DNA of 64,000 bases from Leifsonia sp. 71-9 (GTDB taxonomy: Bacteria; Actinomycetota; Actinomycetes; Actinomycetales; Microbacteriaceae), in contig NZ_MKVJ01000019.1 of assembly GCF_001898805.1 (NCBI RefSeq), positions 9,676-73,675 on the forward strand, given 5' to 3'. Below are positions 14,368-32,900 of this stretch, in pieces. The notes beneath the pieces were generated by a model. It saw only the letters and a list, made by a program, of their open reading frames with translations. It was not told the DNA's origin and made no database searches. The position numbers and the translations under genes are program-made. Every line of letters begins with the position of its first letter. Position 1 is the stretch's first letter.

Positions 14368-14612
14368 GACACTCCATTCCTGTTTCCATCACTGGTACGC
14401 ACGGCAAGACCCCCCAAGCTCACCGACATGCAAGTGCACATGAGGTCATGTCGACATCGGCCACGCTATTGGCGTTGGTGCGGGAGTGCAACCTCTCCAG
14501 GGGGATATCAGTGCTAGCACCCATGCGGCCCGGCGGCGTGTCGGCTTGGCTAGGATGAGACGGCGTGGCGGTCGGCACCGCCACCGCGCATACAGGGGGA
14601 GGCACGGACCGG

Positions 14613-17303: not shown

Positions 17304-18613
17304 CCCGCCGTCGCGGACGGCTCGCGATCGCCGGCCTCGCGGGTGCCGCTGCCGTGCTGCTCGCCGCGGCACCGGCCTCCGCCCTGGCCGCACCGGTCGG
17401 CGCGGTCACCGGCGTCCCGGCCTTCTCGACGGTCGCCACCGCGGCCGATACCGGCTGCACGGACGCCGCGACCTTCATCCCCCAGCGTCCCCCCGCTCTG
17501 AACCAGCTCCAGGCGCCCCTCGCGTGGGACACCACCCGCGGTGCCGGCGTGGTCGTCGCCGTCGTCGACTCCGGGGTGGATGCGGCGAATCCGCACTTCG
17601 CCGGGGTCCTCGCGGGCGGCACCGATCTGGTCGGCGACGGAGCCGGGTCGGCCGGCTACGCGGACGGGTACGGCCACGGGACGGCCATCGCGGGCGAGAT
17701 CGCCGCGCAGACGGTGACCGGCTCCGGAGTGGAGGGGCTGGCTCCCGACGCGCGCATCCTGTCCGTGCGGGTCTTCGCCGGCACCGACGACCAGGCCGTC
17801 GCCGCCGGCATGGGCCCGAGCATCTCCCGCCTCGCCGCCGGCATCCGCTTCGCGGCGGACGCCCACGCCCAGGTGATCAACGTCTCGCTGTCGACCGCGG
17901 TCGACGATGCCGCCCTCCGCGACGCCGTGTCGTACGCGACCGCGCACGGCAGCCTGATCGTCGCGAGCTCGGGCAACCGCGACTCGTCCCTGGCGGTCGA
18001 GAAGGACCAGCAGGACGGCGTGCGCTACCCGGCCGGCTACCCCGGCGTCCTCGGGGTCGCCGCGACCGGCGCGAGCGGCGTCGTGACCGACGACAGCATC
18101 CACGGCGCACAGGTGGCGCTGAGCGCGCCCGGCCAGAACGTGCTGACGGCGGCGAACACCGGTGGCGACTGCGTCTACGCCTCCAGTGCACCGGCGACGA
18201 GCTTCGCCACCGCCTACGTGTCCGCGGCGGCCGCGCTCGTCGCCTCCGCCCACCCCGACGAGACGCCGGCCCAGTGGGCCTACCGGCTCACCGCGAGCGC
18301 CATCCGCGCGCACCCGGACGCACGCGACGACGATTCCGGGTGGGGAGTCGTGCAGCCGTACGAGGCGATCGTGCTCGTCCCCGGCTCCGAGACCGCCGGC
18401 CCGGTCAATCCCTTCGCCACCGCTTCTCCGTCGGCGGGAGGCCCCGCAGCGGCCTCGACGGTGAGCGTGCGGGCCAACGACGACAGCCAGGCCCGGCAGT
18501 CGGCCATCGCCGTGGCGGTCTCCGTCGTGGGGGCGAGCCTGCTGGCGGCCATCGCCGCGCTGAGCATCCTCTTCGCACGGCGGAGACGGGCCGCGGCGAC
18601 GGCGGACGTCTAG
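17300..18613 (+). CDS. mycP: Type VII secretion mycosin (subtilase, S8 family)
   Basis: A 437-residue membrane-anchored subtilisin-like protease. The signal peptide is at about 1-31, the catalytic Asp is in Val-Val-Asp-Ser-Gly-Val, the His in Gly-His-Gly-Thr-Ala-Ile-Ala-Gly, the oxyanion Asn in Ser-Ser-Gly-Asn-Arg-Asp, and the Ser in Ala-Thr-Ser-Phe-Ala-Thr-Ala-Tyr-Val-Ser. The residue before Thr-Ser is Ala where Gly is usual. A C-terminal helix at about 400-425 precedes a basic cytoplasmic tail. Mycosins stabilise the ESX membrane complex and process some substrates. The ATG overlaps eccB by 4 bases. Its TAG stop overlaps head-to-head with the stop of the minus-strand gene at 18610. Confidence 0.93.
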   Translation: MTRRRGRLAIAGLAGAAAVLLAAAPASALAAPVGAVTGVPAFSTVATAADTGCTDAATFIPQRPPALNQLQAPLAWDTTRGAGVVVAVVDSGVDAANPHFAGVLAGGTDLVGDGAGSAGYADGYGHGTAIAGEIAAQTVTGSGVEGLAPDARILSVRVFAGTDDQAVAAGMGPSISRLAAGIRFAADAHAQVINVSLSTAVDDAALRDAVSYATAHGSLIVASSGNRDSSLAVEKDQQDGVRYPAGYPGVLGVAATGASGVVTDDSIHGAQVALSAPGQNVLTAANTGGDCVYASSAPATSFATAYVSAAAALVASAHPDETPAQWAYRLTASAIRAHPDARDDDSGWGVVQPYEAIVLVPGSETAGPVNPFATASPSAGGPAAASTVSVRANDDSQARQSAIAVAVSVVGASLLAAIAALSILFARRRRAAATADV

Positions 18614-19944
18614 CCGCCGAAGACCACCGCCGCGATCCCGATCAGGCCGCCGACCGAGACGGCGCAGGCGGCGACGACACCCGCGACGGTGACCCATCCC
18701 GCCTTCCGGCTGGCACGGCCCACCGAGCTCATCGACGGCGCCTCTGCGCGGGTGGCCTCCGGCCCCGTGCCGAGATCCGGCCCCGGAGCGGGCGGCGCCG
18801 GGATCGGACGCGGTTCGTACACGTCGACCGCGTTCGCGCCGACCGCCTCGACCGCGCGGGTCGACGCCGGCAGCCCGGTGGGCAGCACGATCGGGGTGCG
18901 CTGTGCGCGCAACGAGCGACGGGTGCGGGGCACCGGCGTGCGCGGCGGGACGGCGGGGGTGCCGGGGTGATCGGGGTCCGCGGTCGGCGTGGGGCGGGCG
19001 ATGATGGTGTCGTCCGCGTCGCCGGGGGCGCTGGGGTCGATCGCGGCGCTGGGGCTGCTGGGTTCGCGGGGCGCCTCCTCCGCGTCGTCCGGACGGTGGA
19101 CGACGCGCGTCGCCGCGACCGGGTCGTCGTCGTCGCGGTGGACCACACGGGTGGCGTCCAGAGCCGGGTCGCCGACACGGCGCGGGCTGACGATCGTGTC
19201 GTCGAGCTCCGCCGCCGGCTCGGGATCGGGCTGGGGCTGGGGCTGGGGCTGCAGCTGCGGCTCGGGCTGAGGCTGCGGCTGCGGCTGCGGCTGCGGCTGC
19301 GGCGCGGGGTGGGGCTGCGGCTGCGGCGCGGGGTGGGGCTGCGGCTCAGGCTGGGTCTGCGGCCCGGGGTTTGGCTCAGGCTCCCTGTCCGGCCCGGGAT
19401 TTGGCTCAGGCTCCCTGTCCGGCTCGGGGTCGAACGGAGGGGCGGGCTCGGGCTCGGTCGGCGCCGGCGCGGCCGTCTGCGGGTCGGGGCGGACGGGCTC
19501 GACAGGAGGCGCCGGTGGGGCGAACGGCGCGACGGGAGTTCCCCGGTCGAGTGGCGACTCCGCGGAACTCGACGTTCGGCGCACGATGACGGTCTCATCC
19601 AGTCCCTCGGGCTCGGGCTCGGGCTCGGGGGCGGGGCGCTCCACCACAACGGTCTCGTCCAGAGGCTCCGGACGCTCCACCACGACCGTCTCATCCAGAG
19701 GCTCATCCAGAGTCTCGTCCGCGGACTCCGGCCGCTCAACCACGACCGTCTCGTCCAGAGGCTCCGGCCGCTGGACGACCACCGTCTCGTCGACCGGTTC
19801 GGGATCGGGGTCGGGATCGGGGTCGGGCTCGGTGCGGCGGACGATCACCGTCTCATCCAGCTCCTCGAGCTCGACCCGGTCGTCGAGCTCCGGCTGCTGC
19901 TCCTGCTCCCGCTGCTCCTGCTCGCGCTGCTCCTCGCGACTCAT
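18610..19944 (-). CDS. Tail-anchored protein with tandem Asp-Glu-Thr-Val (FHA-ligand-like) motifs
   Basis: A 444-residue protein; the start overlaps the PP2C stop (ATGA). The order is: Glu/Gln-rich N-terminus (1-20); an array of Leu-Asp-Glu-Thr-Val-Val-Val-Glu-Arg-Pro-type repeats with Thr at residues 32, 54, 66, 78, 86, 98 and 118; a Pro/Gln linker (about 130-245, including a Gln-Pro run); four looser repeats with Thr at 250, 265, 279 and 313; a basic region; and one C-terminal helix (about 417-442) that would tail-anchor it with the array in the cytoplasm. Acidic residues just before Thr with hydrophobic residues after resemble GarA/FhaA-type phosphothreonine sites (family knowledge). A multivalent phospho-scaffold for the locus FHA proteins is my inference. 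No enzymatic domain is seen. Confidence 0.8.
   Translation of the reverse strand: MSREEQREQEQREQEQQPELDDRVELEELDETVIVRRTEPDPDPDPDPEPVDETVVVQRPEPLDETVVVERPESADETLDEPLDETVVVERPEPLDETVVVERPAPEPEPEPEGLDETVIVRRTSSSAESPLDRGTPVAPFAPPAPPVEPVRPDPQTAAPAPTEPEPAPPFDPEPDREPEPNPGPDREPEPNPGPQTQPEPQPHPAPQPQPHPAPQPQPQPQPQPQPEPQLQPQPQPQPDPEPAAELDDTIVSPRRVGDPALDATRVVHRDDDDPVAATRVVHRPDDAEEAPREPSSPSAAIDPSAPGDADDTIIARPTPTADPDHPGTPAVPPRTPVPRTRRSLRAQRTPIVLPTGLPASTRAVEAVGANAVDVYEPRPIPAPPAPGPDLGTGPEATRAEAPSMSSVGRASRKAGWVTVAGVVAACAVSVGGLIGIAAVVFGG
19216..19359. repeat. Low-complexity Gln-Pro coding repeat
   Basis: Hexanucleotide-like ggctgc iterations (purest at about 19271-19301) encode a Gln-Pro-rich run at residues 196-243 of the motif-array protein. 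It is a flexible linker and a likely site of replication-slippage length variation. Confidence 0.7.
19583..19860 (-). repeat. Tandem 36-bp coding repeats (Asp-Glu-Thr-Val array)
   Basis: Diverged copies of a unit of about 36 bp (core on the plus strand: accgtctcgtccagaggctc) encode seven Asp-Glu-Thr motifs. Spacing between the Thr residues is 22, 12, 12, 8, 12 and 20 residues, so the unit is 12 residues with some truncated or expanded copies. Confidence 0.8.
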
Positions 19945-20756
19945 ACGGGCACCGTGTCCCCGTCGTCGGTCCATCCGGCGGGCTCGCGGGTGTCGGCGGG
20001 TCCGGCCGTGCCGGGGTCGCCTCCGGCGAGCACGTCCACGACGACGGCAGTGACGTTGTCCCGTCCCCCGGCGCGGTTCGCCGCCTGGATCAGGGCCGCC
20101 GTGGTCGCCGGCGGACGCCCTCCCGCGACGAGGATCTCGCGGAGCTGCTCGTCGCTGAGCTCGCCGTGCAGGCCGTCGGAGCACACCAGGAGGCGCTCTC
20201 CGGTGGTCACGGGCATCAGCCAGCTGTCTGCGCGCGCGTCCACGGAGCCGAGGGCGCGGGTGATCACGTTCTTGTCCGGGGCGGAGGCTCTCTCGTCGTC
20301 GCGGAGCACGCCGGCGTCGATCCGCTCCTGAACGAGCGAGTGGTCGACGGTCAGCTGCTCGAGGTAGCCGCCGATGAGGCGGTACACGCGCGAATCCCCG
20401 ACGTTGACGATGAGCCAGTGCGGCCGTCCCTCGTGCACGACCAGGATGACGCCGCTGAGCGTGCTGCCCGCCCCGCGCGCCGTCGTGGCGGCGAGCGCGG
20501 TCGCGCGACGCGAGGCCTCGTCGATCGCCGTCGACACCTGCAGCAGGTCGACGACCCCGCCGGTGCACAACGTGTCGCGGAGCGCCCCGATGACCGCGGC
20601 GCTGGCCTGGGCGCCCGCTTCGTGACCGCCCATCCCGTCGGCGACGGCGAAGACGGGTGCGACGGCGAGGCAGGAATCCTCGTTGGCCGCGCGGCGTCGG
20701 CCCACGTCGCTGCGGGCGTCCGCGCTCAGCTGCACGCCGGAGACGACGGCGGTCAT
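19941..20756 (-). CDS. PP2C-family Ser/Thr protein phosphatase
   Basis: A 271-residue metal-dependent phosphatase with the full PP2C signature: Asn-Glu-Asp-Ser near residue 26, Ala-Asp-Gly-Met-Gly-Gly-His (metal Asp), Val-Asn-Val-Gly-Asp-Ser-Arg-Val-Tyr-Arg, Val-Cys-Ser-Asp-Gly-Leu, and Gly-Arg-Asp-Asn-Val-Thr-Ala. No transmembrane segment, so it is soluble, like the catalytic half of mycobacterial PstP. It overlaps the FHA gene upstream and the motif-array gene downstream by 4 bases each. The likely role is to reverse the phosphorylation set by the kinase at 32897, with the neighbouring Thr-rich protein as a candidate substrate (inference). Confidence 0.93.
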   Translation of the reverse strand: MTAVVSGVQLSADARSDVGRRRAANEDSCLAVAPVFAVADGMGGHEAGAQASAAVIGALRDTLCTGGVVDLLQVSTAIDEASRRATALAATTARGAGSTLSGVILVVHEGRPHWLIVNVGDSRVYRLIGGYLEQLTVDHSLVQERIDAGVLRDDERASAPDKNVITRALGSVDARADSWLMPVTTGERLLVCSDGLHGELSDEQLREILVAGGRPPATTAALIQAANRAGGRDNVTAVVVDVLAGGDPGTAGPADTREPAGWTDDGDTVPV

Positions 20757-21940
20757 CGGCCGTCCTCCCGTTCGATGCGCAGGCCGACGGTCCCCAGCAG
20801 GAGTCGCCCGGACACCGGGGCGGAGTCGCCGGGGGCGAGCTGGCGCTCCACGCCGTCGAGGTCGAGGAACACCCCGTTCGTCGACTGGAGGTCGGTGACG
20901 ACCCAGCCGTCGCCGTCCCGGGTGAGGCAGGCGTGCTGCTTCGAGAGGGTGCGGGAGGTGTCGGGGACGGCGAGATACTGCACGCCGTGCTCCTCCCCCG
21001 CGGGGCGGCGACCCAGGACGACCACGTCGGCCTCCAGCGGATGCCGGCCGCCGTCGTCGGTGACGAGCGTCCAGGTGGCGACGGCGCGACGCTCGACCAC
21101 GATGGTCTCGGCCGCCTCGTCGTCGAGGTCGATGCCATTTTCGATCGGCTCAGGCGCGGGCTCGGGCGCCGACTCGGGCATGGGCTCGGGATCGGGCACG
21201 GCGACCTCCGGGGTCGGGATGTCCGCGGGGGCATCCATGAACGGCGTGCGGATCGGCGCCGGATCGGCGACGGGTTCCGCCGGCGGGGCGACAGGCGCGT
21301 ACGGGGCGCCTGGTTCCGTTGGCGGAGAGACGGGTTCCGCGGGCAGGGCGACGGGTTCCGCTGGCGGGGCGACAGGTTCCGCGACCGGAGCGGCGGCCTC
21401 CACGAGCGAGGCCGGAGCCGCGGGCGGCACCTCAGCCGTCGGCGGCGCGACAGGCACCGCCGGAGCCACCGCGACGGGAGGCTCGACGATCGTCGCCACG
21501 GCGCCGAAATCCGGCTCCGGCTCGGGCTCGGGAGGCGCGGTCCGCGCGGGCGGAGCCTCCGCGGTCGCCACGGGCTCGCGGGTGGACGCCAGCACGGTGG
21601 CCCAGACCGGCGGCAGCAGCACGGCCAGCGCGGTGGAGCCCGCGCCGCGGCCGAACGTACGGCCGATCCGGTTCGCGGCGAGGGCGCGCAGGACGATCGC
21701 GTAGACGCAGACGACGGGGATGAAGAAGAACACGACCGTCCAGGCGGGGCGCCCGCCGAGCCGGAGGATCTCCGCCTCGTTCAGCACGGGCACCCACGCG
21801 CGCCACGGTTCCACGTTCCGCCGGGCGAACACCCGGGAGAGTGCGGCGGCGTACCAGAGGAAGACCGCCAGCCCGATGATGAGGCCGACGAGACCCGCGA
21901 CGAGCGCGAGGACGACGAGGGTGGCGGTGCTGTCGGTCAT
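20753..21940 (-). CDS. DUF5684-like membrane protein fused to a C-terminal FHA domain
   Basis: A 395-residue protein. N-terminal helices at about 8-30, 60-80 and 95-112 follow a DUF5684-like pattern (Trp-Arg-Ala-Trp-Val-Pro-Val-Leu-Asn-Glu-Ala-Glu-Ile-Leu...Phe-Phe-Phe-Ile-Pro-Val-Val). A long Pro/Ala/Glu-rich linker (about 118-265) follows. Next comes an acidic Glu-Thr-Ile-Val-Val-Glu-Arg-Arg motif (Thr279), and then an FHA domain (about 295-388) with Gly-Arg-Arg, Ser-Lys-Gln-His and Thr-Asn-Gly-Val. FHA domains bind phosphothreonine. The Thr279 motif copies the motif array of the downstream gene and could allow self-binding, as in GarA. Four-base overlaps join it to its neighbours. Confidence 0.88.
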   Translation of the reverse strand: MTDSTATLVVLALVAGLVGLIIGLAVFLWYAAALSRVFARRNVEPWRAWVPVLNEAEILRLGGRPAWTVVFFFIPVVCVYAIVLRALAANRIGRTFGRGAGSTALAVLLPPVWATVLASTREPVATAEAPPARTAPPEPEPEPDFGAVATIVEPPVAVAPAVPVAPPTAEVPPAAPASLVEAAAPVAEPVAPPAEPVALPAEPVSPPTEPGAPYAPVAPPAEPVADPAPIRTPFMDAPADIPTPEVAVPDPEPMPESAPEPAPEPIENGIDLDDEAAETIVVERRAVATWTLVTDDGGRHPLEADVVVLGRRPAGEEHGVQYLAVPDTSRTLSKQHACLTRDGDGWVVTDLQSTNGVFLDLDGVERQLAPGDSAPVSGRLLLGTVGLRIEREDGR

Positions 21941-24480
21941 GCGCTCGCCTTCCGGGTTCGGGGCGCCGTGAGCAGTCGCCAGGAGAGCCGCAGGCGCGGG
22001 CGCCCGAGGGCACGCACGAAGGAGGCGGGATTGATCGCGGCGAGCAGCGAGCGCACCGGTCCGCGGTCGGCGCGCAGGCGCGCCCGCTCGGTATCGAGGA
22101 GCTCCCAGGCCCGCTCGGCAGCCTCCCGCGTGGGCGGGTGCTCGGCGAAGACGGCGATGTCGGTGAGCGCGGCCAGCTCGATGGCGGCGGGAGAGCCGAT
22201 CGCGGCCGCGACATCGCGACGCGTCCCCGGGAGGGCCGGATCGCCGCCATCGGTGCGGGCATCCATCAGCTCGGCCCAGGCCCCCACGACGGCGACCTCC
22301 GGCACGGGTGCACGGCGACGACGTCCGCGCCGCATCCGCTTGGCGATCAGGAGCACGAGGAAAGGCAGCGTCAGCAGCAGGAGGGTCGCCACGGCGAGGC
22401 CGACGATCGCCAGCACGCGCAGCAGCACTGTCACCCACTCGGGCTGCTCCTGCACGACCGCGCGGGTCGCATCCCGGTCGTCGTGCTGGGCGGCGGGCGG
22501 CAGCACCGTGCCGACCTGAGGCTGCTCGGGGACGGTCGGGTTCTTGGGCAGCTGGTGGTCGAGCGAGATCAGCGTCGGGGCCTTCTCGAACTGCGGCTCG
22601 ACGTCGACGGTCGTCCACTCCCCCGCTCCCGGCGCGCGCACCTCGATCCAGGCGGCCAGGTTGGCGCCCGTGCACTTTCTGGAGCAGGCCGGGATGCCGC
22701 CGGTCTCGCCCGTGCCCATCCGCACGCCCACCACGACCCGCGACTCGTAGCCGACCGCCCGCGCGAGCAGGGCGCCCGCCGCCGCGAACTGCTCGTCGTC
22801 GCCGACGCCCGCGACCAGCAGGTCCGCGCTGGAGGCGCTCCCGACGCGGTTCTGCTGCTCCAGCAGCTGAGCGAAGAGCGCCTCGATGCGTGCGGTCGAG
22901 TGGCCGGCGAAGCTCGACTCGAACGGGTAGGCGGACTGGCTGCGCAGGGCGGCGATCCAGGTGGCGGCCTGGTCGTCCTCCGCCAGGGAGTGGCTGAGGT
23001 AGCCGCGGTCGCGCAGGCGGGAGATGAGCTCCTGGAATCCGGCGGCCGTCCGCGGCTGCGCCTGCGCCTCCAACCACGCCGCCAGCTCGGGATGGGCTTT
23101 CAGATCGACGAGGCTGCTGGTGCCCGGATCCGTCAGCGGGACGGCCGGCGTCCCGGTCCCCTGCACCTCGTAGCTGTCGCCGCTGCGCACGCCGCGCGCG
23201 CCGTCGGCGGCCTGAGTGGTGTCGATTCCCGCGCCGGTCTGCTTGTCCAGGTAGAAGGCGTCGGCCAGCGCCGCCGCGCGGGGTCCGCCGAAGGTCGGGG
23301 AGGTGCGGGCGTCCGCCGGCATCGGCAGCCAGATGCCCGAGTAGCCGTCGGCGATCGTGACGGTCATGGTCCGCGCGCCGGGAGCGGGCGAGCCGCCGGG
23401 CAGGCGCGAGAAGCGGGTGTCCCCCGAGACGAGGAAGTGCTCGCCGTCCCAGTCGTCCAGGGTCGCCAGCCGCAGGCGGTCGATGCTGGACCCGGCTCCC
23501 GAGACGGAGAACAGCTCGCGGTCGTACGCGCCCTTCTCGAAGGACGCGCGGTAGCGGCCGAGCGGGGTGGTCTGCTGCTGCACCACCAGCAGAGGCTCGG
23601 TCGAGGTGCGCAGTGTCTCGCGCGTGCTGGTGCCGGCGAGCGCCGGACCGGCGGTGAAGCCGGCGACCAGAGCGACCACCAGGAGGCCGGCGCCCAGCAG
23701 CCGGCGACGGACCGCGGCGCCGGCCGAGGCCGACCCCTGCCGCACGACGCCGACGGTGCCGCGGGCGGCGGCCAGCGCAGCGCGGCGTCGCAGCCGCGCC
23801 CGGAGGGTCAGCCAGACGAGCGACGCCGCGACCAGCAGCAGGCCGAGCAGAACTTCGCGGGGCGCGTCGATGCGGATGCCCAGCAGGAGGAGCGGAGCGC
23901 CGGGGTCGGTGGCCCCGAAGGCGATGCCGAAGACGCCCATCCCCAGCACGACCGGGACCGCCGCGGCCGCGCGGCGTTCGGGCGAGAGGGCCAGAGCCGC
24001 GGCGAGCGCGGATCCGATCAGGAAGAGCGCGTAGACCGGCACGAGCACCGCCTGGTACTGGCCGACCGGCAGGTCGAGGGTGAGCAGCTGCTTCCAGCCC
24101 AGGACGATGCCCGTCACCCCGTCGAGGAGGCCGCGCAGCACCTCGAGCGGGGAGACCAGCGCCGAGGGCACGGCGAGAGGAACGACGCCGACGATGTAGA
24201 GGCCGGCGACGACGAGGATGTGCACCCACGCGGGCCACCGCCGCAGCCGTGCGACGACGGCGGTCCCGACTCCCACGACACCGGCGTAGGCCGCGACCGC
24301 GACGAGGCGCGGCGTCTCGTACAGCGGCCACGCGAGCGCGCAGGCGAGCGCGAGGCCGACCAGGACGTAGGCGGCGGCCAGGACCGTCTGCGGCACATCC
24401 AGCCGGAGCGCTGCCGCCCGCTGCGAGCGGGCCCGACGAGCCGCCGCCCGAGCGCCGTCGCCTCCCACCGGCGCGCTCAC
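21937..24480 (-). CDS. Transglutaminase-fold membrane protein lacking catalytic Cys and His
   Basis: An 847-residue protein. N-terminal helices (about 30-230) are followed by a large extracytoplasmic region, a transglutaminase-like core (about 500-640), a helix at about 685-710, and a cytoplasmic tail. This is the DUF3488/TgpA-type layout usually encoded beside MoxR and DUF58, as here. Where the active-site Cys of Gly-Asp-Cys-Glu-Gln-Phe should be, the protein has Gly-Asp-Asp-Glu-Gln-Phe (Asp562). The His of His-Ala-Trp-Val-Glu is Ala609 in Ala-Ala-Trp-Ile-Glu. The third-residue Asp (Val-Asp-Val-Glu-Pro) remains. By my alignment it should be inactive. GTG 24480 overlaps the DUF58 stop and is preferred to the longer antisense-overlapping frame. 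Confidence 0.87.
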   Translation of the reverse strand: MSAPVGGDGARAAARRARSQRAAALRLDVPQTVLAAAYVLVGLALACALAWPLYETPRLVAVAAYAGVVGVGTAVVARLRRWPAWVHILVVAGLYIVGVVPLAVPSALVSPLEVLRGLLDGVTGIVLGWKQLLTLDLPVGQYQAVLVPVYALFLIGSALAAALALSPERRAAAAVPVVLGMGVFGIAFGATDPGAPLLLLGIRIDAPREVLLGLLLVAASLVWLTLRARLRRRAALAAARGTVGVVRQGSASAGAAVRRRLLGAGLLVVALVAGFTAGPALAGTSTRETLRTSTEPLLVVQQQTTPLGRYRASFEKGAYDRELFSVSGAGSSIDRLRLATLDDWDGEHFLVSGDTRFSRLPGGSPAPGARTMTVTIADGYSGIWLPMPADARTSPTFGGPRAAALADAFYLDKQTGAGIDTTQAADGARGVRSGDSYEVQGTGTPAVPLTDPGTSSLVDLKAHPELAAWLEAQAQPRTAAGFQELISRLRDRGYLSHSLAEDDQAATWIAALRSQSAYPFESSFAGHSTARIEALFAQLLEQQNRVGSASSADLLVAGVGDDEQFAAAGALLARAVGYESRVVVGVRMGTGETGGIPACSRKCTGANLAAWIEVRAPGAGEWTTVDVEPQFEKAPTLISLDHQLPKNPTVPEQPQVGTVLPPAAQHDDRDATRAVVQEQPEWVTVLLRVLAIVGLAVATLLLLTLPFLVLLIAKRMRRGRRRRAPVPEVAVVGAWAELMDARTDGGDPALPGTRRDVAAAIGSPAAIELAALTDIAVFAEHPPTREAAERAWELLDTERARLRADRGPVRSLLAAINPASFVRALGRPRLRLSWRLLTAPRTRKASA

Positions 24481-25850
24481 TGAAGCGCTCCCCGCGCGAT
24501 GAGCTTGCCGAGGTCGTCGAGGGCGCCGACGGTGAGGACGCTCATGGGGCCGAAGCGCCGGAACGCCGGGTCGGCGCCGAGCTCGCAACGCACGGCGACG
24601 CACTGCGTGTCGGGGCCGAAGGCGATGGAGGCTCCGCGCAGCCGGCCCAGCGGCGTGTGCGCGCCCGTGACCAGGAAGACGACCGACAGGTTCGGATTCG
24701 ACTGGGCGGTGAGCTTCGCGACGTCCTCGAGGCGGCTCGCCCGCTCGGCCAGCTCGATCTCCGAGAAGCCGTCGAGCATCGCCGCCGCGTTGCGCGTCGG
24801 CAGCGTGCGGATCGTCACGACCTCGCCGCGCACCAGTTCCGGGCGCTCGGCGCTCGTCGTCACCACCAGGTCGCGACCGTCGCGGACGGCCTGGAGGCTG
24901 AGCGACGCGGCCACGCTGACAGCGAGCTCGAACTCGTCGTCCGACTCGTATTCCTCCTCGGCGGTGATGCCGATGGTCACGGCGATGCGCGAGTGCCGCG
25001 CCTCCTCGTACTGGCGCACCATGAGCCGACCGGTCTTCGCGGTCGACTTCCAGTGGACGTGGCGCCGGGAGTCGCCCGGCACGTAGTCGCGGATGGCGTG
25101 GAACGCGAGGTCCGCATCGACGATCGTGCTCGTCGGGAGACCCTCGAGGTCGCGGATGAGGCCGGCGCTCGTACCCGGGATGACCGCGGTCACGGGATGG
25201 ACGTGGAGCGTGTGCACCTCCGGCCAGAGCGCCTCGCGCCGCAGCAGCCCGATCGGGTCGCCGCGGGAGACCGAGACCGGGCCGACGTCGATGACGCCGC
25301 GTCGGGCGGCCGCGATCGACAGCCGCTCGGTGTGCTCGGCTCCCGCCGCGAGGAGCGGCACGTACGCCTCGGCGAGTCCGGACCCGATGGGCACGTCCAC
25401 CCGCCCGGGCAACGACGCGCGGCTTCCCGCGTTGCGGACCACGAGCCGCCCGGTCACGTCGTCGCCCGCGACGACCCGCTCCCGGTCCAGGGCGAGCTGC
25501 ACCCGGTAATCGTGGGAGCCCAGGAGGAAGGGGATGCAGACGACGATCAGCGCTGCGGCGGCCGCAGCGACGATCCAGCCGAGGCTCCAGCCGGCGACCC
25601 AGCCCGCGATCGCTCCGGCGACGAGCACGCAGACGACCAGCCAGCCCGGCGCGGTGACGGTCTCCACCAGCCAGCGCACGGAGGCGCGCAGCGCCGAGCC
25701 GACGGCCGCCGCGGCCGCACGGCCCCAGAAGACGCCGTCCTCGACGATGCCGGTGCTGCTCCTCGTGACGCTCGTGACCGTCGAGGCACGCGTGCGCGTG
25801 CCGGTGACGGTTCGCGTCAGCCGCGAGGAGGTGTCGTCGTACTCTGCCAT
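24477..25850 (-). CDS. DUF58 domain protein
   Basis: A 457-residue protein with two close hydrophobic helices (about 55-105) and a cytoplasmic or membrane-proximal DUF58 domain. Its signature is Ile-Arg-Asp-Tyr-Val-Pro-Gly-Asp-Ser-Arg-Arg-His-Val-His-Trp-Lys-Ser-Thr-Ala-Lys-Thr-Gly (about 250-272), which opens a von Willebrand A-like fold. DUF58 proteins are routinely encoded with MoxR ATPases and transglutaminase-like proteins and are thought to act with them in protein assembly or maturation. It starts 5 bases after the moxR stop and overlaps the next gene by 4 bases. Confidence 0.92.
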   Translation of the reverse strand: MAEYDDTSSRLTRTVTGTRTRASTVTSVTRSSTGIVEDGVFWGRAAAAAVGSALRASVRWLVETVTAPGWLVVCVLVAGAIAGWVAGWSLGWIVAAAAAALIVVCIPFLLGSHDYRVQLALDRERVVAGDDVTGRLVVRNAGSRASLPGRVDVPIGSGLAEAYVPLLAAGAEHTERLSIAAARRGVIDVGPVSVSRGDPIGLLRREALWPEVHTLHVHPVTAVIPGTSAGLIRDLEGLPTSTIVDADLAFHAIRDYVPGDSRRHVHWKSTAKTGRLMVRQYEEARHSRIAVTIGITAEEEYESDDEFELAVSVAASLSLQAVRDGRDLVVTTSAERPELVRGEVVTIRTLPTRNAAAMLDGFSEIELAERASRLEDVAKLTAQSNPNLSVVFLVTGAHTPLGRLRGASIAFGPDTQCVAVRCELGADPAFRRFGPMSVLTVGALDDLGKLIARGALQ

Positions 25851-25855
25851 CCGCC

Positions 25856-26821
25856 TCAGGCCGCTCCGTTCTCCACGGGCGCCTCGACGTCCAGCAGGAT
25901 CTGCCCGATCACGGCGTCGGGCGTCACGCCGTCGAACTCCGCGTCGGGGTTGAGGACGAGGCGGTGCGCGAGCACGGGCAGCGCGAGGTCGCGCACGTCG
26001 TCGGGGGTGACGAAGCTGCGTCCGTGGGCGACGGCCCAGGTGGCGGCGAGGCGGGCCAGGGCGAGGCCGCCGCGCACGCTGACGCCGAGCTTGACCTCGC
26101 TCGCCCGGCGGGTGGCCGCGATCAGCCGCATGATGTAGTCGAGCACCAGCGGGCTGCTGTAGACCCCGGCGACCAGGTCGGACATCGTCACGATCAGCTG
26201 GGCGTCGACGATCTCGGGCACCTCGCGGCGCGGGTGCATCGCGCCCTGCAGGATCCGCAGGGTCGACGCATCGTCGGGGTAGCCGATGGAGGCGCGGATC
26301 ATGAAGCGGTCGAGCTGCGCCTCCGGCAGCCGGTAGGTGCCCGCCTGCTCCACCGGGTTCTGCGTCGCGATCACCACGAACGGGACGCCGACCGGGCGGG
26401 TGACGCCGTCGACGGTGACGCGGCCCTCCTCCATCACCTCGAGCAGCGCCGACTGGGTCTTCGGGCTGGCGCGGTTGATCTCGTCGGCCAGGACCACGTT
26501 GGCGAAGATCGGGCCGGTGTGGAACTCGAACTCGCCGCGCTTCTGGTCGTAGACCGTGATGCCGGTCACGTCGCCGGGCAGCAGGTCCGGGGTGAACTGG
26601 ATGCGCGTCGACGTGCCGCGGATGGTCTGGCCGAGGGCGCGGGCGAGCGCCGTCTTGCCGGTGCCGGGGACGTCCTCGAGGAGGATGTGGCCCTCGCTCA
26701 GCAGGGTCGCGAACACGAGCTCGACGATGTGGCGCTTGCCGAGCACCGCCTGCTCGACGTTCTCCACGAGCTGGGCGAAGGTCGACTGGAACCAGGCGGT
26801 CTGTTCGGGGGTGATGGTCAT
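25856..26821 (-). CDS. MoxR-family AAA+ ATPase
   Basis: A 321-residue cytoplasmic AAA+ ATPase of the MoxR/RavA group. Walker A is Gly-Thr-Gly-Lys-Thr-Ala within Glu-Asp-Val-Pro-Gly-Thr-Gly-Lys (about 44-54), Walker B is Val-Val-Leu-Ala-Asp-Glu-Ile-Asn-Arg (about 109-117), sensor 1 lies in Val-Ile-Ala-Thr-Gln-Asn-Pro, and the arginine finger region is Leu-Asp-Arg-Phe. ATG 26821 overlaps the stop of a 20-codon minicistron and is preferred over the ATG at 26908, which would overlap the Ig-protein gene by 32 bases. MoxR ATPases act as chaperone-like remodelers with their DUF58/VWA partners; the partner is next in the operon. Confidence 0.93.
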   Translation of the reverse strand: MTITPEQTAWFQSTFAQLVENVEQAVLGKRHIVELVFATLLSEGHILLEDVPGTGKTALARALGQTIRGTSTRIQFTPDLLPGDVTGITVYDQKRGEFEFHTGPIFANVVLADEINRASPKTQSALLEVMEEGRVTVDGVTRPVGVPFVVIATQNPVEQAGTYRLPEAQLDRFMIRASIGYPDDASTLRILQGAMHPRREVPEIVDAQLIVTMSDLVAGVYSSPLVLDYIMRLIAATRRASEVKLGVSVRGGLALARLAATWAVAHGRSFVTPDDVRDLALPVLAHRLVLNPDAEFDGVTPDAVIGQILLDVEAPVENGAA

Positions 26822-26880
26822 GCGTCTTCCTCGGTCGTCGGTCGCGGTCGTGGCGGTCTCGATGTCATGGCGTCGCTCAT
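26818..26880 (-). CDS. 20-codon minicistron linking the Ig-protein gene to moxR
   Basis: ATG 26880 overlaps the stop of the giant Ig-protein gene (ATGA) and the TGA at 26818 overlaps the moxR ATG (ATGA). The predicted peptide is MSDAMTSRPPRPRPTTEEDA. It is too short and Pro/Arg-rich for a stable fold. The double overlap suggests that terminating ribosomes are handed from gene to gene, so the reading frame rather than the peptide may matter. It could also be chance. Confidence 0.4.
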   Translation of the reverse strand: MSDAMTSRPPRPRPTTEEDA

Positions 26881-29800
26881 CCGCCCGTCCCGCCGGTGCC
26901 GCCGGCACCTGGGTCGGGGTTGGTCGGCGCTGCGACGCCGCAGCGGGTCAGGGTCCGTTCGCCGAGCGCCTGGTACGCGCCGGTGAAGGTGATCTTGTAG
27001 CTCACGGTCCGGGTCGCGGGGTCGATCGAGACGTCGGTCGTGTACGCCCCCGCCGACTTGACCGCGCCCGAGAACACGATGTCGTCCTTCGTCGGTGCGA
27101 CCGTGCAGTCCGTCGGCACGTTGACGGTGACCGTCGTCGGGATGGTCGTCGGCGTCACAGGCGCGTTCGCCCCGCACGAACTGGTGCTGTCGAGGAAGCA
27201 GTAGCTGTAGGTGATCTGGCCCGGATCGCTGTCCTTCGACAGCGCGAAGTCGTGGGTGAGATTGCCGTTGATCCGGTAGTAGACGCCGAACAGCGACCGC
27301 GGCGGCACGTTCGGCGCCGTCACGCTGAGGAACTCGTATCCGCTGGTGAAGGCGCCGGAGGTGATGGTGCGCGACGGGTCGACGCCGACCGTGTAGGTGA
27401 CGCCGGGGCCGCCGGGCGAGATCGTGAAGGTGTACGCCGACTGCGTGCCGGTGGCGACCGCGCCGAAACCGTTCGCGGCGCACGCCTGCCCGAAGTACCT
27501 GGTGTACTCCTGCAGTCCGCCGAAGTTGTTCGAGGCCTGTCCTCCGGGCATCACCGGGTTGCCGTTGCCGTCCATCGAGCACGACGGCTGCGGCGCCCCC
27601 TCCCGCCACACCGCGTAGAGCACGTTGACGCCCTTGGCGCTGTGGTTCGGGTCCACCCCGACGTCCTTCAGCTGCAGCGCCGTGTTCGACGACGCGACGA
27701 GCGATCCGTTGGACGTGACGATCGGCGCACCCGACACCTGCACGGACTGCGCCCACGCCGAACCGGTGTTGCCCGATCCGAGCGGCGGCTGGAACTGGCT
27801 GACGGGGATGACGGAGATGTTCCGTGATCCCGGGGAGGCCGTCCCCGTCCACGTGGTCGTCGCACCGGTGCGCGGCACCTGGGCGACGGGGTTGCCGTCG
27901 ATGCTGATCTGGAACCCGCTGGTGTCGTCGCTCGACTGGATCGAGAGCGAGATCACGCCCAGCGTCGCCGTCGTGCGCGCCGGGTCGTAGACGGTGCCGC
28001 TGCTGCCGCCGCTGATGACCGGGGGCTGGTACGCCCAGGTGACCACCGGCGTCGTGTCGAGCGACTCGCCCACGGCGTTGACCGCCCGCGCGGTGAAGGT
28101 GTGGCGCTGCCCGTTCACGAGACCGCCGACGGTGCAGGAGTAGGTGCCCGCCGCGCCGGCGGAGCAGCTCGACGGCACCTGCTGGCCGTTCTCGTAGATC
28201 GCGACGCCGCGCAGCCCGGGGTGCGCGAGGGCAGCCTCGCCGAGCGTGACGAGGAGCGTCACGCTCGATCCGGTGAAGCCCGTGGTCGTCACGGAGCTGG
28301 GCTGCGCCGGATAGCCCTGGACGTCGAGGGTGAGGGTGCCGCCGCCGGTGCGGCCCTGCGCGTCGGCGACGGTGTACGGGACGATGCAGCTGCCGCCGGC
28401 CGGCTTCGGTCCGCCCGGCCAGGTGGCGGTGATCGCGCTGGTCCCGGAGGCGGAGATCGACGCGACCGCGCAGGTCGTCTGCCCGAGGCCCACGAGCTTG
28501 AGGCCGGAGCCCTGCTTGCCCTGGAACGGGTCGTACTCCCCCGCCACGCCGATGACCGTGACGGAGCAGGACGGTCCGCCGCTCACCGAGCACGACTGGG
28601 TGAAGGTGGCGGCGCGCGGGGCGTCCGGCGGCGCCGCTCCCACGACGAGCGTGACGTTGGCGGTGAGGCCGCCGAACGAGGTCACCTTGACGGTGACGTT
28701 CTCGCGGGCGCCGGGGTGCGCATCCGCCCTCGCCGTCGCGGTCAGCGTGCGCCCGGACTGGGTGACGGCGAAGTTGGTCCCCGAATACACGATCGCGTAG
28801 TCGAGCGCGCCCTGGTCGCCGACGCGGCCGCCCTCCCAGCTGGTCAGGTCGGCGTACAGGTCGATGGTCTGGGAGGCGCCCGGAGCGACCGTACGGCTGA
28901 CCGAGTTGAGCTGGGCCTGCGGGCTCTTGGGCTGGATGACGACCGGCACCGGCAGGGCGGTCCAGGTGCTCTGCCCGGCCAGGCGCACCTGTACCGTGCA
29001 GGTGTCGGTCCACGGCGCCTCGCGGCCGGCCGCGTATGTTGCGCTGGAACCGCCGCCGGGCGTGCACCGGGCGTTCGCGCGCTGGACGGCGAACGAGTTG
29101 TCGTCGCGCACCTGCAGGGCATCCCCGGAGACCAGGTCGACGGCCTCCTTCAGCGGGATGGATACCGACTGCTCCTCTCCGACCTTGTAGGCGGTGAGCC
29201 CGCCCGCGAGCTGCAGGCGCATGTCGTCGAACGCGGGGATGCGCAGGAAGCCGTAGCCGACCGACTTGCGGCCGGTCTGGTCGATCCCGGTCAGCGCGAA
29301 GGGCACGAGCGCGCCGTCGCGAGGGACCGGCCCGCTGATCCGGTGCCCCGTCACGGTGTACGACGACGCCGACGGCCCCCAGATCGAGAGCGTGAGGTCG
29401 GAGATGCTGCCGGAGCTCCACACGGTCTTGCCCGCGACCACGTCGATCCCCGTCGCGAGCTCGCTGCGGTCGCGGGTGCCGACCACGGTGTCCGTCACGA
29501 CGGGCACGTCGGTCGCGGCCTCCGCCGTCACGGTCACGACGATGAGACCCTGCGCGGTGCTGGAGGTCGCCGAGGACTTCACGGTGTAGATGTACGACTG
29601 CACACCCTCCACGTCGCCCGGGAGCAGGCGGACCGTCCCCGACTTCAGGTCGGTGCCGGAGGCGATCAGGCCCTTCAGGCGGTTGTACTCGCTGGAGCCG
29701 GGGAGCTCGGGCGCGTTGGGCACGACGGAGACGAGGCTGAGCATGCCGCCCGCCGGGTCGCGGTCGTTCAGGAGCGGCTGCACCGTGAGCGGCGTGGTCG

Positions 29801-32800
29801 AGCCCTTCACCGTGCGCACCGCGTCGCTGTAGGTGATCGGCGCGACGTCGGCGTCCGCGCTGCCGAGGACGGCGATGCGGATGACCCCGTCTCCGGTGGC
29901 GCCCGCCGGATCGCGCAGGGTGTAGCCGAACGACACCTGGCCGCCGCTGACGCCGCCGCCGGGCGCCGTGTAGACGATCGATCGGCCGTCCGGCCCGATG
30001 GTCGCGGCGCCCGACCCGGCCTTCGGCTGGGCGAGCGACGAGAGCACCGTGGCGTCGCCGTCCGGGTCCTGGCCGGCCGAGGGAACGGCGAGGGTGACGG
30101 TCCCGCCGGCGCGGACGCGGGCGGTCAGGGTCGACGGCTCCGGCGCGCGGTTGGCGCCGTCGGCGATGACGGTGACCGTGATCTCCGTCGAGTCGAGGCG
30201 GCTCGGGTCCGATTCGACGTAGTCCGAGTAGTGGAGCGTGTAGACGCCCGCCTTGGTCGGCGCGAGGTAGCGCACGGTGTCGCCGGCGGCGAAGACGAGC
30301 TCGCCCGGGGCCCCCGAGCCCTCGATCTGCGAGGAGAGCACGAGGCGCTCACCGCGCGGCGCGATGTCGTTGGCGGTGACCGGGATGTCGACCTGCGTGC
30401 CCGCCCGCACCGTCACGGCGTCGGGGCGCGCGATCGGTCCGATGCCGGTCGCCGGGTCGACGAGGAAGACCGTGATCTCGCCCTGGACGGTCTGCCCGGC
30501 GCCGTCGCCGATCGTCACCGTGGCGGTGCCGATGCGTCCGGGCCTGCCGTCCGCCGTGGTGCCGCTGACGCGGACCTGGGCGTTGTCGACGACGCTCGCC
30601 GACAGGCGGTCCTCGTCCGCCGTGACCGACTGGACGGCGAGGACGCGGCCCGACGTGTTCTGGACGGCCGGGAGCACGTCGAGCGTCGTGTCCTCCTGCG
30701 CGCGGGCGAAGGCGACGAGCGGCGGGATGGTGAGCGCCCGGCCTCCCGCCACCACGCTGAAGCGGAGCACGCCGGTCTGCTCGGCCTTGGTCTGCGCGTC
30801 CTGCACGGTGTAGCCGACGAAGTACTCGCCCGCGGCCTTCGCCGTGAGCTGGATGGTGCCGGCCGCGCCGTTCGGCGTCACCGTCGCGTAGTCCTTGTCG
30901 CCGGTGGTGATGACCGCGTCGGTGAGCCGGTACGAGCCGGAGCCGCCCTCGACGTGGTCCGCGATCGCCTCCGTGCGCGGCTCGCCGACGCCGGTGACGA
31001 CGGCGGCGGGCACCGTGGTGAGCGCCGGATCGGCCGCGACCGAGACGACGAGCTCCTTCGTCGTCTGGGCGCCGCGCGCATCCACCACCGTCACGGTCAC
31101 CGCGTAGGTGCCCGCGCCGGCGTTCGGGTCGGTGTGGCGGACGGCGACCCGGCCGTCCGCGGTCGCGACGACGCGGATCGGGGCGGCGGCGTCCGTCTTG
31201 CGGGCATCGGCCAGGGCGATCGGATCGCCGTCCGGATCCACCCACGCGGAGAGCACCGGGACCGAGACGGTGCCGCCCGGCGCGAGCGACACGGTCGGCC
31301 AGGTCTGCATGCAGTTGTCGATGCCGCACCAGGCCGGGGCGCTGTTGTCCGCGTCCGCCACGACGTGCAGCGTGACGGTCGCCGGCTGGGACTGCATGAG
31401 TCCGTCGGTCACCACGTAGCTGAACGTCGCGGTGCCGCTCTGCGCGCGCACGTGGATCGCGAGCTGCTGGTCGTCGGCCGTCAGCGACAGGTCGCCGAAG
31501 CCCGGATCGCTGAGGCCGCCCCCGAGCGAGTCGGGCACGATCGAGAGCACGGCGCGCTTCACGGGCGAGTGCGCGTTGAGGAGCACGGGGAGGATGGCGG
31601 TCGCGCCCGCGCGCACGCCGAAACTCGACGGCTGCGCCACCGGCGGCATCTCCTGGGTGACCTCCTCGACCTGCGTCGTGGTCTCGGTCTCCTGGGTCTT
31701 CTTCTCGTCGTCGGCGTTCCACTGGGACGGCGGGATGAGCGTTCCGTCCGGGATGGTCCAGAGCGTCCCCGACTCGGTCTCGTCGAGCACGGCGCGCTGG
31801 CCGTTGCTCAGGATCTGGGGCGCGAGCGAGCGGGCGTCCTCGAGCGTGCCCTGGGGCACCTCCAGCGTCGTGGTGCCCCCGGTGGACGACCAGAGGCGCC
31901 CGGCGGTGGTGGAGAGCCACGCGCCGTAGACGGTGCCCGCCACCTCGGTCGGCGCGGCGGGAGTGCCGGATGCGTCGACGGTGCGGCCGGACTGACCGCT
32001 GCGCACCTGCACGGCCACGAGCCCGGAGCCGTCGGCGAAGTAGGCGGCGGCGCCGTCGGAGGTGCTCCCGGCGATCGCGTCGCTGCCGAGGCGCACGTCG
32101 ACCGCGGCATCGCGTCCGGCGATCCACGCCTTGCTCTGCGCGGGCGCGGCGAGCACCCAGGTGCCGCCCGCGAGCGCGAGCGCGACCTTGGCCGAGGCCG
32201 GCGGCGAGGAGGCGAGCTTCGCGGCGTCGCCCGTCCAGGTGCCGCGCGCGGCGTCGTAGACGCGCACCGCGCGCTCCTTCGCCGAGTACAGGGCGACCGT
32301 GCCGTCCGCCCCCACGGCGACGGCCGTCGCGACGTAGCCCTCGGCGCCCTTCGTGGTGCGCTCCTGCTGCAGCGGGTCGATCGGGACCGGCTTGCCGGCG
32401 GATCCCTGCGCGGAGAGCTGTTGCACGTACACCGTGCCCGCGTCGGTGAGGTACGCGGCCCAGTCGCCGTTCGAGAGCACCTGCCGGGTGCCGCTCGGGG
32501 TGGAGGCGCCGGTCGAGCCGCCCGACGACGATCCCGAGGCCCCGGACGAGGACGCGGCCTCGGCCGTCGACCCCTCGACGAGCGCCTTCGGGTCGGCCGG
32601 ATCGACCTCCCACGCCTGGCGGAAGCCCTGCGTGAAGACGATGCCCTGGGAGCCGTGCTGCACGACGCCGCTCGGATCCTCCGCATCCCGCACCGTGCTG
32701 AGCTGCTTGAGGTCGGTGTCGACGCGCGCGTACTGGCCGGAGGCCTTCGTCACCCAGACGGAGCTCTCGACGGCCTCCGACTTCTGGGTGTCGTACCCCT

Positions 32801-32900
32801 GCGCGATGACGGCGCCCGTCACCACGAGCGCGATGGCGGCGACGACCGCGGTCACGGCGGTGGCGCGGCCGAAGCGGCGACGAGGTGCCCGCTGCTTCAC
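26877..32900 (-). CDS. Giant Ig-like/FN3 repeat membrane protein of the T7SS locus
   Basis: A 2007-residue protein (about 200 kDa). A basic N-terminus and one transmembrane helix (about 14-36) export the rest. Residues about 40-430 contain repeated Gly-Asp-Trp/Ala-Tyr-Leu-type beta segments that look propeller-like, and an acidic Lys-Lys-Thr-Gln-Glu-Thr-Glu stretch near 430. From about 440 to 1500 come successive Ig/cadherin-like domains marked by Pro-Asp-Gly-Asp or Asp-Pro-Asp-Gly-Asp and Asn-Arg-Ala-Pro starts. Fibronectin-III-like and Cys-containing domains follow to a Gly-rich end. It is probably a surface or wall-associated scaffold. GTG 32900 overlaps the kinase stop (GTGA); the frame upstream is antisense shadow. 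No enzymatic motif is seen. Confidence 0.87.
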   Translation of the reverse strand: MKQRAPRRRFGRATAVTAVVAAIALVVTGAVIAQGYDTQKSEAVESSVWVTKASGQYARVDTDLKQLSTVRDAEDPSGVVQHGSQGIVFTQGFRQAWEVDPADPKALVEGSTAEAASSSGASGSSSGGSTGASTPSGTRQVLSNGDWAAYLTDAGTVYVQQLSAQGSAGKPVPIDPLQQERTTKGAEGYVATAVAVGADGTVALYSAKERAVRVYDAARGTWTGDAAKLASSPPASAKVALALAGGTWVLAAPAQSKAWIAGRDAAVDVRLGSDAIAGSTSDGAAAYFADGSGLVAVQVRSGQSGRTVDASGTPAAPTEVAGTVYGAWLSTTAGRLWSSTGGTTTLEVPQGTLEDARSLAPQILSNGQRAVLDETESGTLWTIPDGTLIPPSQWNADDEKKTQETETTTQVEEVTQEMPPVAQPSSFGVRAGATAILPVLLNAHSPVKRAVLSIVPDSLGGGLSDPGFGDLSLTADDQQLAIHVRAQSGTATFSYVVTDGLMQSQPATVTLHVVADADNSAPAWCGIDNCMQTWPTVSLAPGGTVSVPVLSAWVDPDGDPIALADARKTDAAAPIRVVATADGRVAVRHTDPNAGAGTYAVTVTVVDARGAQTTKELVVSVAADPALTTVPAAVVTGVGEPRTEAIADHVEGGSGSYRLTDAVITTGDKDYATVTPNGAAGTIQLTAKAAGEYFVGYTVQDAQTKAEQTGVLRFSVVAGGRALTIPPLVAFARAQEDTTLDVLPAVQNTSGRVLAVQSVTADEDRLSASVVDNAQVRVSGTTADGRPGRIGTATVTIGDGAGQTVQGEITVFLVDPATGIGPIARPDAVTVRAGTQVDIPVTANDIAPRGERLVLSSQIEGSGAPGELVFAAGDTVRYLAPTKAGVYTLHYSDYVESDPSRLDSTEITVTVIADGANRAPEPSTLTARVRAGGTVTLAVPSAGQDPDGDATVLSSLAQPKAGSGAATIGPDGRSIVYTAPGGGVSGGQVSFGYTLRDPAGATGDGVIRIAVLGSADADVAPITYSDAVRTVKGSTTPLTVQPLLNDRDPAGGMLSLVSVVPNAPELPGSSEYNRLKGLIASGTDLKSGTVRLLPGDVEGVQSYIYTVKSSATSSTAQGLIVVTVTAEAATDVPVVTDTVVGTRDRSELATGIDVVAGKTVWSSGSISDLTLSIWGPSASSYTVTGHRISGPVPRDGALVPFALTGIDQTGRKSVGYGFLRIPAFDDMRLQLAGGLTAYKVGEEQSVSIPLKEAVDLVSGDALQVRDDNSFAVQRANARCTPGGGSSATYAAGREAPWTDTCTVQVRLAGQSTWTALPVPVVIQPKSPQAQLNSVSRTVAPGASQTIDLYADLTSWEGGRVGDQGALDYAIVYSGTNFAVTQSGRTLTATARADAHPGARENVTVKVTSFGGLTANVTLVVGAAPPDAPRAATFTQSCSVSGGPSCSVTVIGVAGEYDPFQGKQGSGLKLVGLGQTTCAVASISASGTSAITATWPGGPKPAGGSCIVPYTVADAQGRTGGGTLTLDVQGYPAQPSSVTTTGFTGSSVTLLVTLGEAALAHPGLRGVAIYENGQQVPSSCSAGAAGTYSCTVGGLVNGQRHTFTARAVNAVGESLDTTPVVTWAYQPPVISGGSSGTVYDPARTTATLGVISLSIQSSDDTSGFQISIDGNPVAQVPRTGATTTWTGTASPGSRNISVIPVSQFQPPLGSGNTGSAWAQSVQVSGAPIVTSNGSLVASSNTALQLKDVGVDPNHSAKGVNVLYAVWREGAPQPSCSMDGNGNPVMPGGQASNNFGGLQEYTRYFGQACAANGFGAVATGTQSAYTFTISPGGPGVTYTVGVDPSRTITSGAFTSGYEFLSVTAPNVPPRSLFGVYYRINGNLTHDFALSKDSDPGQITYSYCFLDSTSSCGANAPVTPTTIPTTVTVNVPTDCTVAPTKDDIVFSGAVKSAGAYTTDVSIDPATRTVSYKITFTGAYQALGERTLTRCGVAAPTNPDPGAGGTGGTGG

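Follow-up and report, generated by a model that had tools for sequence, protein, structure and literature searches.

GarA and OdhI are FHA regulators of the tricarboxylic acid (TCA) cycle, and a phosphorylatable acidic-Thr motif before their FHA domain can bind in cis. The human DNA-damage scaffold MDC1 carries TQXF and acidic phospho-repeats that are bound by FHA domains (PMC11884936; this and the other papers cited by PMC number are represented here by excerpts of their text, to which the comparisons refer). The juxtamembrane domain of StkP is disordered and membrane-proximal and carries seven phosphothreonines, and its phosphomimetic form favours partner recruitment (PMC12077195). In the type VI secretion system (T6SS), a threonine phosphorylation pathway of the kinase PpkA, Fha and TssL controls the envelope machine (PMC3953482; PMC11217815). 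The PFNA operon of Bifidobacterium has the gene order pkb2-fn3-aaa-atp-duf58-tgm-prpC-hypothetical-fha (PMC8430577), and single-helix components named TsdH, TseH and TseK occur in the related gene sets of the type VII secretion systems (T7SS) T7SSd and T7SSe (Garrett et al. 2024, PMC11217815). Here, a protein with an array of short Thr motifs is described from 64,000 nucleotides of Leifsonia sp. 71-9 (contig NZ_MKVJ01000019.1, positions 9,676 to 73,675; this whole stretch is called the window). Its gene lies beside genes for a PP2C-type phosphatase, FHA proteins and a Ser/Thr kinase, and the protein is probably a multivalent phosphothreonine docking scaffold that gathers FHA proteins at the membrane.

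The gene (18610..19944, minus strand) encodes 444 amino acids, exactly as in an initial annotation that had been made from the letters without database searches. Its start codon and the PP2C stop codon share a 4-base overlap (ATGA), and at the other end its stop codon runs into the last bases of a convergent mycosin open reading frame (ORF). The main motif array (residues 29-124, 19573..19860) holds seven Asp-Glu-Thr motifs (Thr32, 54, 66, 78, 86, 98, 118), six of them being DETV[VI]V, and a second motif cluster (residues 246-321, 18982..19209) holds looser motifs at Thr250, 265, 279 and 313, the same motif types being present in the three genus relatives that have this gene cluster. The translation confirmed all of these annotated positions. 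The 12-residue repeat of the initial annotation holds for three of the six intervals (54-66, 66-78, 86-98), the remaining ones being 22, 8 and 20 residues, and its Asp-Glu-Thr-Val array holds for the six DETV[VI]V copies and fails at Thr78 (ADETLDEPL), which is without the hydrophobic and Arg context. Between the two clusters is a Pro/Gln/Glu-rich linker (residues 130-245, 19210..19557), encoded by 6-, 24- and 30-base DNA repeats. Pro accounts for 96 of the residues and Glu for 50, with one Lys and one Trp, and Pfam and NCBIfam searches returned no family above its cut-off. Trypan_PARP (Pfam; 16.6 bits, cut-off 100) was rejected as a composition-driven match only.

Consistent with the annotated disorder and C-terminal helix, the AlphaFold2 model, built from a 20-sequence alignment, has low confidence over most of the protein (mean predicted local distance difference test, pLDDT, 55.7), and its only helices are residues 3-16 and 408-443. 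The C-terminal helix (residues 408-443, 18616..18723) contains a hydrophobic stretch and follows a conserved juxtamembrane segment (residues 340-407, 18724..18927). In an alignment of the window protein with 19 of 48 references, R379 of this segment is invariant and R342, P355, Y376, P385 and S407 are present in at least 90% of the sequences. By the positive-inside rule, the basic flank of a membrane helix marks the cytoplasmic side; the array therefore most likely faces the cytoplasm, because the basic residues RASRKAGW precede the hydrophobic stretch.

Chance does not account for the motif number. In 20,000 composition-keeping shuffles of the protein, the Asp-Glu-Thr count (7 observed) had a mean of 0.27 and a maximum of 4, DETV[VI]V (6 observed) never exceeded 1, and the strict motif, acidic-Thr-hydrophobic-basic (8 observed), had a mean of 0.18 and a maximum of 3. 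Among the six full copies, 135 codon comparisons gave 55 synonymous and 24 non-synonymous differences, so the copies are not the product of fresh DNA slippage. An origin by slippage only was rejected on this ground, and also because the motif is kept across genera.

The array protein was followed in the best 80 of 286 relatives, found by the transglutaminase of the cluster and covering Leifsonia, Microbacterium, Agromyces, Leucobacter, Demequina and others; Leifsonia aquatica DSM 20146 is the closest named relative among them (transglutaminase 94%). At each locus the ORF richest in motifs near the PP2C stop was chosen in any frame, after removal of two false PP2C places (the Ig tail in L277, and in L285). 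The PP2C gene was located in 56 of the 80 loci, and a tail-anchored protein stands beside it in 53 of the 56 with at least one strict motif and in 48 with at least two; a C-terminal hydrophobic helix is present in all 53. No PP2C was found in the stretches of the remaining 24 loci, several of which are short contigs, and 8 of these 24 have an array protein elsewhere in the locus. In an overlapping set of 98 stretches (56 of family f1, 21 of f10, 10 of f4 and 11 other), whose counts, like those of the genus and family sets, cannot be added to the former, 56 stretches encode a tail-anchored protein that has one or more strict motifs; none of these came from f4, because the pattern used for PP2C failed on the f4 stretches. 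The initial annotation had made its claim depend on conservation of both motif and repeat number: the motif is kept, while copy number varies from 1 to 15.

The consensus of the motif is [DE]-x-T-[VR]-[VIL]-[VSA]-x-R. Of 231 motifs, 222 have Asp or Glu at -2 and 215 have Arg at +5, and the leading residues at +1 are Val and Arg. What is seen at -2 and +1 stems in part from the motif definition, but that definition does not ask for Arg at +5: any R or K in positions +3 to +7 satisfies it. Examples are DETVVTGR (L086), the EATVFVxR type (L084, 15 copies), DATRIVRR (L074), ERTVIVDR (L066) and DHTVMSTR (L146). Motif 9-mers are more alike within one protein (0.63) than between proteins (0.45). In 13 of 14 related pairs, not all of them independent, the motifs are better preserved than the linkers (0.78 against 0.40 for the window protein and L. 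aquatica), and the motif is kept in Microbacteriaceae and Demequina while the linkers diverge. With open-ended ORFs left out, here as in the PP2C-tail and co-tuning counts below, motif density in the 80-locus set is 16.8 per 1000 residues in the array proteins and 0.73 in shuffled copies, and lies between 0 and 0.66 in PP2C, transglutaminase, DUF58, MoxR, Ig, EccB and mycosin proteins (the kinase and FHA1 were left out).

The candidate reader, FHA1 (20753..21940, minus strand, 395 residues), has N-terminal hydrophobic segments, a Pro-rich linker and a C-terminal FHA domain, directly upstream of which it carries DDEAAETIVVERR. This pre-FHA motif (residues 271-287, 21080..21130, minus strand, DLDDEAAETIVVERRAV) centres on Thr279. 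A motif like that of the array protein lies 18-33 residues before the GR of the FHA domain in 57 of 59 loci, with Arg at +5 in 55 of the 57; the pattern allowed D, E, G or Q upstream, and 21 of the 80 loci had no recognised FHA. The phosphothreonine-binding residues G40, R41, S63, H66 and N85 are invariant in 35 aligned sequences (the window and 34 of 52 candidate references), for which the selection pattern prefers Arg at +5, so that the invariance of this Arg is partly built in; the 57 of 59 is a count independent of that alignment. The FHA1 profile matches FhaA, GarA and OdhI chains, and a model of the motif with its FHA domain (pLDDT 87.5) matches the FHA structures of CEP170, FhaA, ArnA, GarA, OdhI, MDC1 and DgcB in fold; no cis contact is claimed because the motif itself is modelled at low confidence. 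FHA1 thus shares with GarA and OdhI an acidic-Thr motif before a phospho-competent FHA domain. It differs from them in its hydrophobic N-terminus, its long Pro-rich linker and the separate array protein, and it scores 19 bits against the OdhI family (cut-off 200), far too low for a small soluble FHA protein of that kind.

The PP2C-type phosphatase (19941..20756, minus strand) ends in GWTDDGDTVPV (19944-19976), which includes a looser acidic-Thr motif. Such a motif is found at the tail of 52 of 53 PP2C proteins, compared with 27% of sequence windows elsewhere in PP2C, and the narrower form T(x)[VIL]P in 34 of 53, compared with 0.2%. PP2C tails with a conserved acidic-Thr motif of the DEDTLPR type were also seen in several loci of families that have no array protein. 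Window-type PP2C (at least 83% identity) occurs in 4 of 28 genus genomes, that of the window included, while a PP2C 46-49% identical to it is present in all 28.

From these features a mechanism can be proposed. The disordered part of the protein would lie in the cytoplasm, tethered to the membrane by its one C-terminal helix. The cluster kinase would phosphorylate the Thr of the acidic-x-T-hydrophobic-x-x-x-R motifs, and each phosphorylated motif could hold an FHA domain, chiefly that of FHA1. With its own motif, FHA1 may close on itself in cis, as GarA and OdhI can, link up with further FHA1 molecules into chains, or dock on the array protein. PP2C would erase the marks, and the looser motif in its tail may dock as well. 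Motif number would set how many FHA1 molecules gather, and kinase activity would therefore become a membrane-localised cluster, with the MoxR-DUF58-transglutaminase-Ig module as its target, together with the T7SS in genomes that have one. For the output, our best guess is the set of constant neighbours: MoxR, DUF58, transglutaminase and Ig protein. This reading gains support because the array is conserved, FHA1 has a like motif, and looser motifs occur in the PP2C tail and in the MoxR of the f4 clusters.

The f4 clusters come from ten genomes, whose Bifidobacteriaceae label is inferred from gene order. In all ten the five core PFNA genes follow the published order. Six have a recognised PP2C and four a recognised FHA gene, and in each of the four FHA proteins a W-D-[SG]-T-V-L-S stretch precedes the FHA domain. 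No tail-anchored array ORF was found on scanning the ten f4 stretches. Their MoxR N-termini contain 2-6 acidic-Thr motifs in ten of ten loci under a looser definition that requires no basic residue, and at seven loci this count is reached by fewer than 2% of shuffled N-terminal extensions; a tighter +1/+2 definition (at least three within 60 residues) leaves five of ten. The cluster kinase Pkb2 of Bifidobacterium has been reported to phosphorylate the MoxR of the cluster (PMC8430577; PMC6803598), and this report is the nearest to experimental support, but it concerns a protein other than the array protein. More broadly, one type of motif in arrays of variable number, carried by a tethered scaffold in Microbacteriaceae and Demequina or by MoxR in Bifidobacteriaceae-like clusters, may form a portable actinobacterial phosphothreonine code that drives kinase-controlled FHA clusters at the membrane, in which the FHA proteins could also chain through their own motif. 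We regard this extension as conceivable and rather doubtful, and our estimate was lowered slightly because the f4 MoxR array was only partly borne out by the stricter and shuffle checks.

Several results weigh against the docking scaffold and its extension. The f4 MoxR arrays are mostly without Arg, and at three of the ten loci 5-9% of shuffles reach their count. Only a single strict motif is present in 5 of the 53 loci, and likewise in some loci outside the 80-locus set, for example L063 and L064, and three of the 56 PP2C loci have no array protein (L298, L303 and L288, the last of which ends at a contig edge). In the pair L069/L072, one of the 14, the motifs are less alike than the linkers. 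Co-tuning of array and FHA1 motifs was rejected: motifs resemble those of their own locus slightly more than those of others (0.498 against 0.476, permutation p=0.018), and this fails the control for relatedness (partial Mantel p=0.145, 43 loci); in several loci (e.g. L238) the script had used the first pre-FHA Thr, which belongs to a second, more distant motif. No report of phosphorylation at the motif Thr sites of the array protein was found, and the excerpts on Pkb2 and MoxR do not name the phosphorylated sites.

The same motifs could instead serve as a phosphate sink or timer, in which the array and the FHA1 site compete for the kinase, the phosphatase and the FHA domain, so that the array sets a threshold and recruits no complex. 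Like motifs in FHA1, in the array protein and, in looser form, in the PP2C tail would suit such competition, and so would a copy number free to vary from 1 to 15, as a tunable dose predicts. A sink has no need of a membrane tether, yet the C-terminal helix and the juxtamembrane segment are conserved, and we consider it unlikely. Use of the motifs as plain, unphosphorylated docking peptides for the kinase, MoxR or DUF58 is very improbable. Arg at +5 and hydrophobic residues at +1 to +3 could fit any peptide groove, but in most loci genes for a kinase, a PP2C and an FHA protein accompany these Thr residues with upstream acids, the phospho-binding residues of the FHA domain are conserved, and acidic-Thr motifs recur on MoxR, a reported kinase substrate (PMC8430577). 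That the array is a functionless low-complexity expansion is hardly credible: the DNA is repetitive here and copy number varies, but differences between copies are more often synonymous than not, and the motif outlasts its linkers from Microbacteriaceae to Demequina.

The initial annotation had taken the array for a T7SS component that switches or clusters the secretion machine once phosphorylated. In the window the array gene does sit between a mycosin gene and an operon that bears EccC, and 21 of the 53 array loci have a T7SS homologue within the stretch. In G166 and G148 the cluster kinase has, no further than about 4 kb away, an EssC-like ATPase that carries an FHA domain at its N-terminus, a close homologue is similarly placed in G217, and a more distant one adjoins the array end of the cluster in G414. 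However, 32 of the 53 stretches, which end before the kinase, have no T7SS homologue. In 20 whole genomes with the array protein, picked mostly for having no adjacent T7SSa and thus informative on independence and not on a rate, EccB was found in 3, so that 17 have the array protein and no EccB, and EccCb exceeded its cut-off in 8. In G335 and G348, which encode the array protein, neither an EccC above its cut-off nor an EssC-like ATPase at E<=1e-60 was found; at that threshold, 17 of 30 genomes had an EssC-like match, one of the ten f4 genomes among them, and the other EssC-like homologues sit elsewhere in the genomes. A dedicated T7SS regulator is therefore quite unlikely; these neighbourhood and whole-genome family searches weaken any T7SS-only reading, and the T7SS link is frequent, not obligatory. 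The array protein goes with the PFNA-type module of kinase, phosphatase, FHA, MoxR, DUF58, transglutaminase and Ig proteins, often but not always near a T7SS, and support was gained by the annotated phosphothreonine scaffold, but not by its T7SS-specific part.

Like MDC1, the proposed multivalent docking scaffold has repeated Thr motifs, found here to be conserved and to lie within disorder, and several short copies would likewise be read by FHA proteins. MDC1 is eukaryotic and chromatin-bound and has another motif and other kinases, whereas the array protein is bacterial, membrane-tethered and predicted to be phosphorylated. In the T6SS pathway, as far as the excerpts describe it, the docking site is on the machine protein TssL and not on a dedicated multi-site array. 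The StkP domain belongs to the kinase itself, and its sites misfit the predicted StkP substrate motif (PMC12077195). TsdH and TseK, too, have one transmembrane helix and an unstructured part in the cytoplasm, and they are encoded next to genes for kinases and Ig-like proteins, to which T7SSe adds phosphatase and FHA genes; TsdH, TseH and TseK are short and no Thr-motif array is mentioned for them in the excerpts, a distinction by description only (PMC11217815). A bacterial array of this kind was not found among the matches listed in the open-access literature, subscription papers lying outside the scope of the search. This suggests that the multivalent scaffold is new, undescribed in the open-access literature searched, within the known phosphothreonine/FHA pathway. 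To our knowledge, the dedicated multi-site scaffold for Ser/Thr kinases is a device known chiefly from eukaryotes; if the reading is true, bacterial Ser/Thr kinases gain one, and with reader, writer, eraser and scaffold in one operon its valency could be varied at will. The PFNA cluster, studied in probiotic bifidobacteria, would also gain a testable phosphorylation logic, with the N-terminal MoxR motifs as the target of Pkb2.

At the window locus, a T7SSa adjoins a PFNA-operon-type cluster. The minus strand reads, in order, array protein, PP2C, FHA1, transglutaminase, DUF58, MoxR, Ig-type giant, kinase, EccC, FHA2/RDD and an EccD-like protein, and the PFNA core of kinase, Ig/FN3 giant, MoxR, DUF58 and transglutaminase is found in one-strand order. 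Family searches bore out the kinase, PP2C phosphatase and two FHA proteins that had been annotated on the same strand. The neighbours beyond FHA1 are the transglutaminase-domain protein with hydrophobic segments (21937..24501), the DUF58 protein (24477..25850), the MoxR-type AAA ATPase (25856..26821), the giant Ig-type repeat protein of surface type (26877..32888; tandem-95 repeat below its cut-off, and no FN3 match in an NCBIfam search), the Ser/Thr kinase with a C-terminal hydrophobic segment, which is the proposed writer (32897..34033), EccC (34170..38228; EccCa and EccCb both above cut-off) and FHA2 with a zinc ribbon, an RDD membrane domain and an FHA domain (38135..39421), all on the minus strand. 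On the plus strand, EccD (14565-15953) and EccB (15957-17303), both above cut-off, are followed by the convergent mycosin (~17300-18613), below its cut-off. Of 40 loci from the genus and the family, 29 keep the order PP2C-transglutaminase-DUF58-MoxR-Ig-kinase, and 26 of these 29 have an FHA gene between PP2C and transglutaminase. The PFNA operon shares kinase, Ig/FN3 giant, MoxR, DUF58, transglutaminase, PP2C and FHA with the window; it differs in that no array protein is described in the excerpts, and MoxR is the protein that bears its acidic-Thr motifs. At the place of the published hypothetical, the one f4 genome scanned has a gene (L194:2704-3306) for an LRV_2 repeat protein, and identity of that hypothetical with the array protein was rejected.

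Some further observations concern these neighbourhoods. At its N-terminus the DUF58 protein is rich in Thr and Arg (LTRTVTGTRTRASTVTSVTRSS), and this stretch may be a further kinase target. Adjoining the operon are a second mycosin-like protease, below its cut-off (42201-43598), and a 443-residue Gly-rich protein with no NCBIfam match (40873-42204), which may be a secreted substrate. The genome of the window has a second PFNA-like cluster (L203/L213, G000:C1:300000-334000) in which no array protein was seen; it contains FHA, PP2C, kinase, Ig, MoxR, DUF58 and transglutaminase genes and a small FHA protein that has a zinc ribbon and the motif DTTIVER, and the start of such a cluster is also present in G002 and G014 (L204, L205). 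In families f12, f6 and f9 (L149, L150, L160-L166), a long, different protein follows PP2C and begins with GTWxxxGPATLVVRE or LRYxxGDWLALV. The EssC-like ATPases that carry an FHA domain at the N-terminus and are encoded near the cluster kinase in Microbacteriaceae (L216:1891-6387, L226:4834-9330) possibly belong to a T7SSd/e-like system; beyond the ATPase in L216 are ORFs that we take to be rpoC and rpoB.

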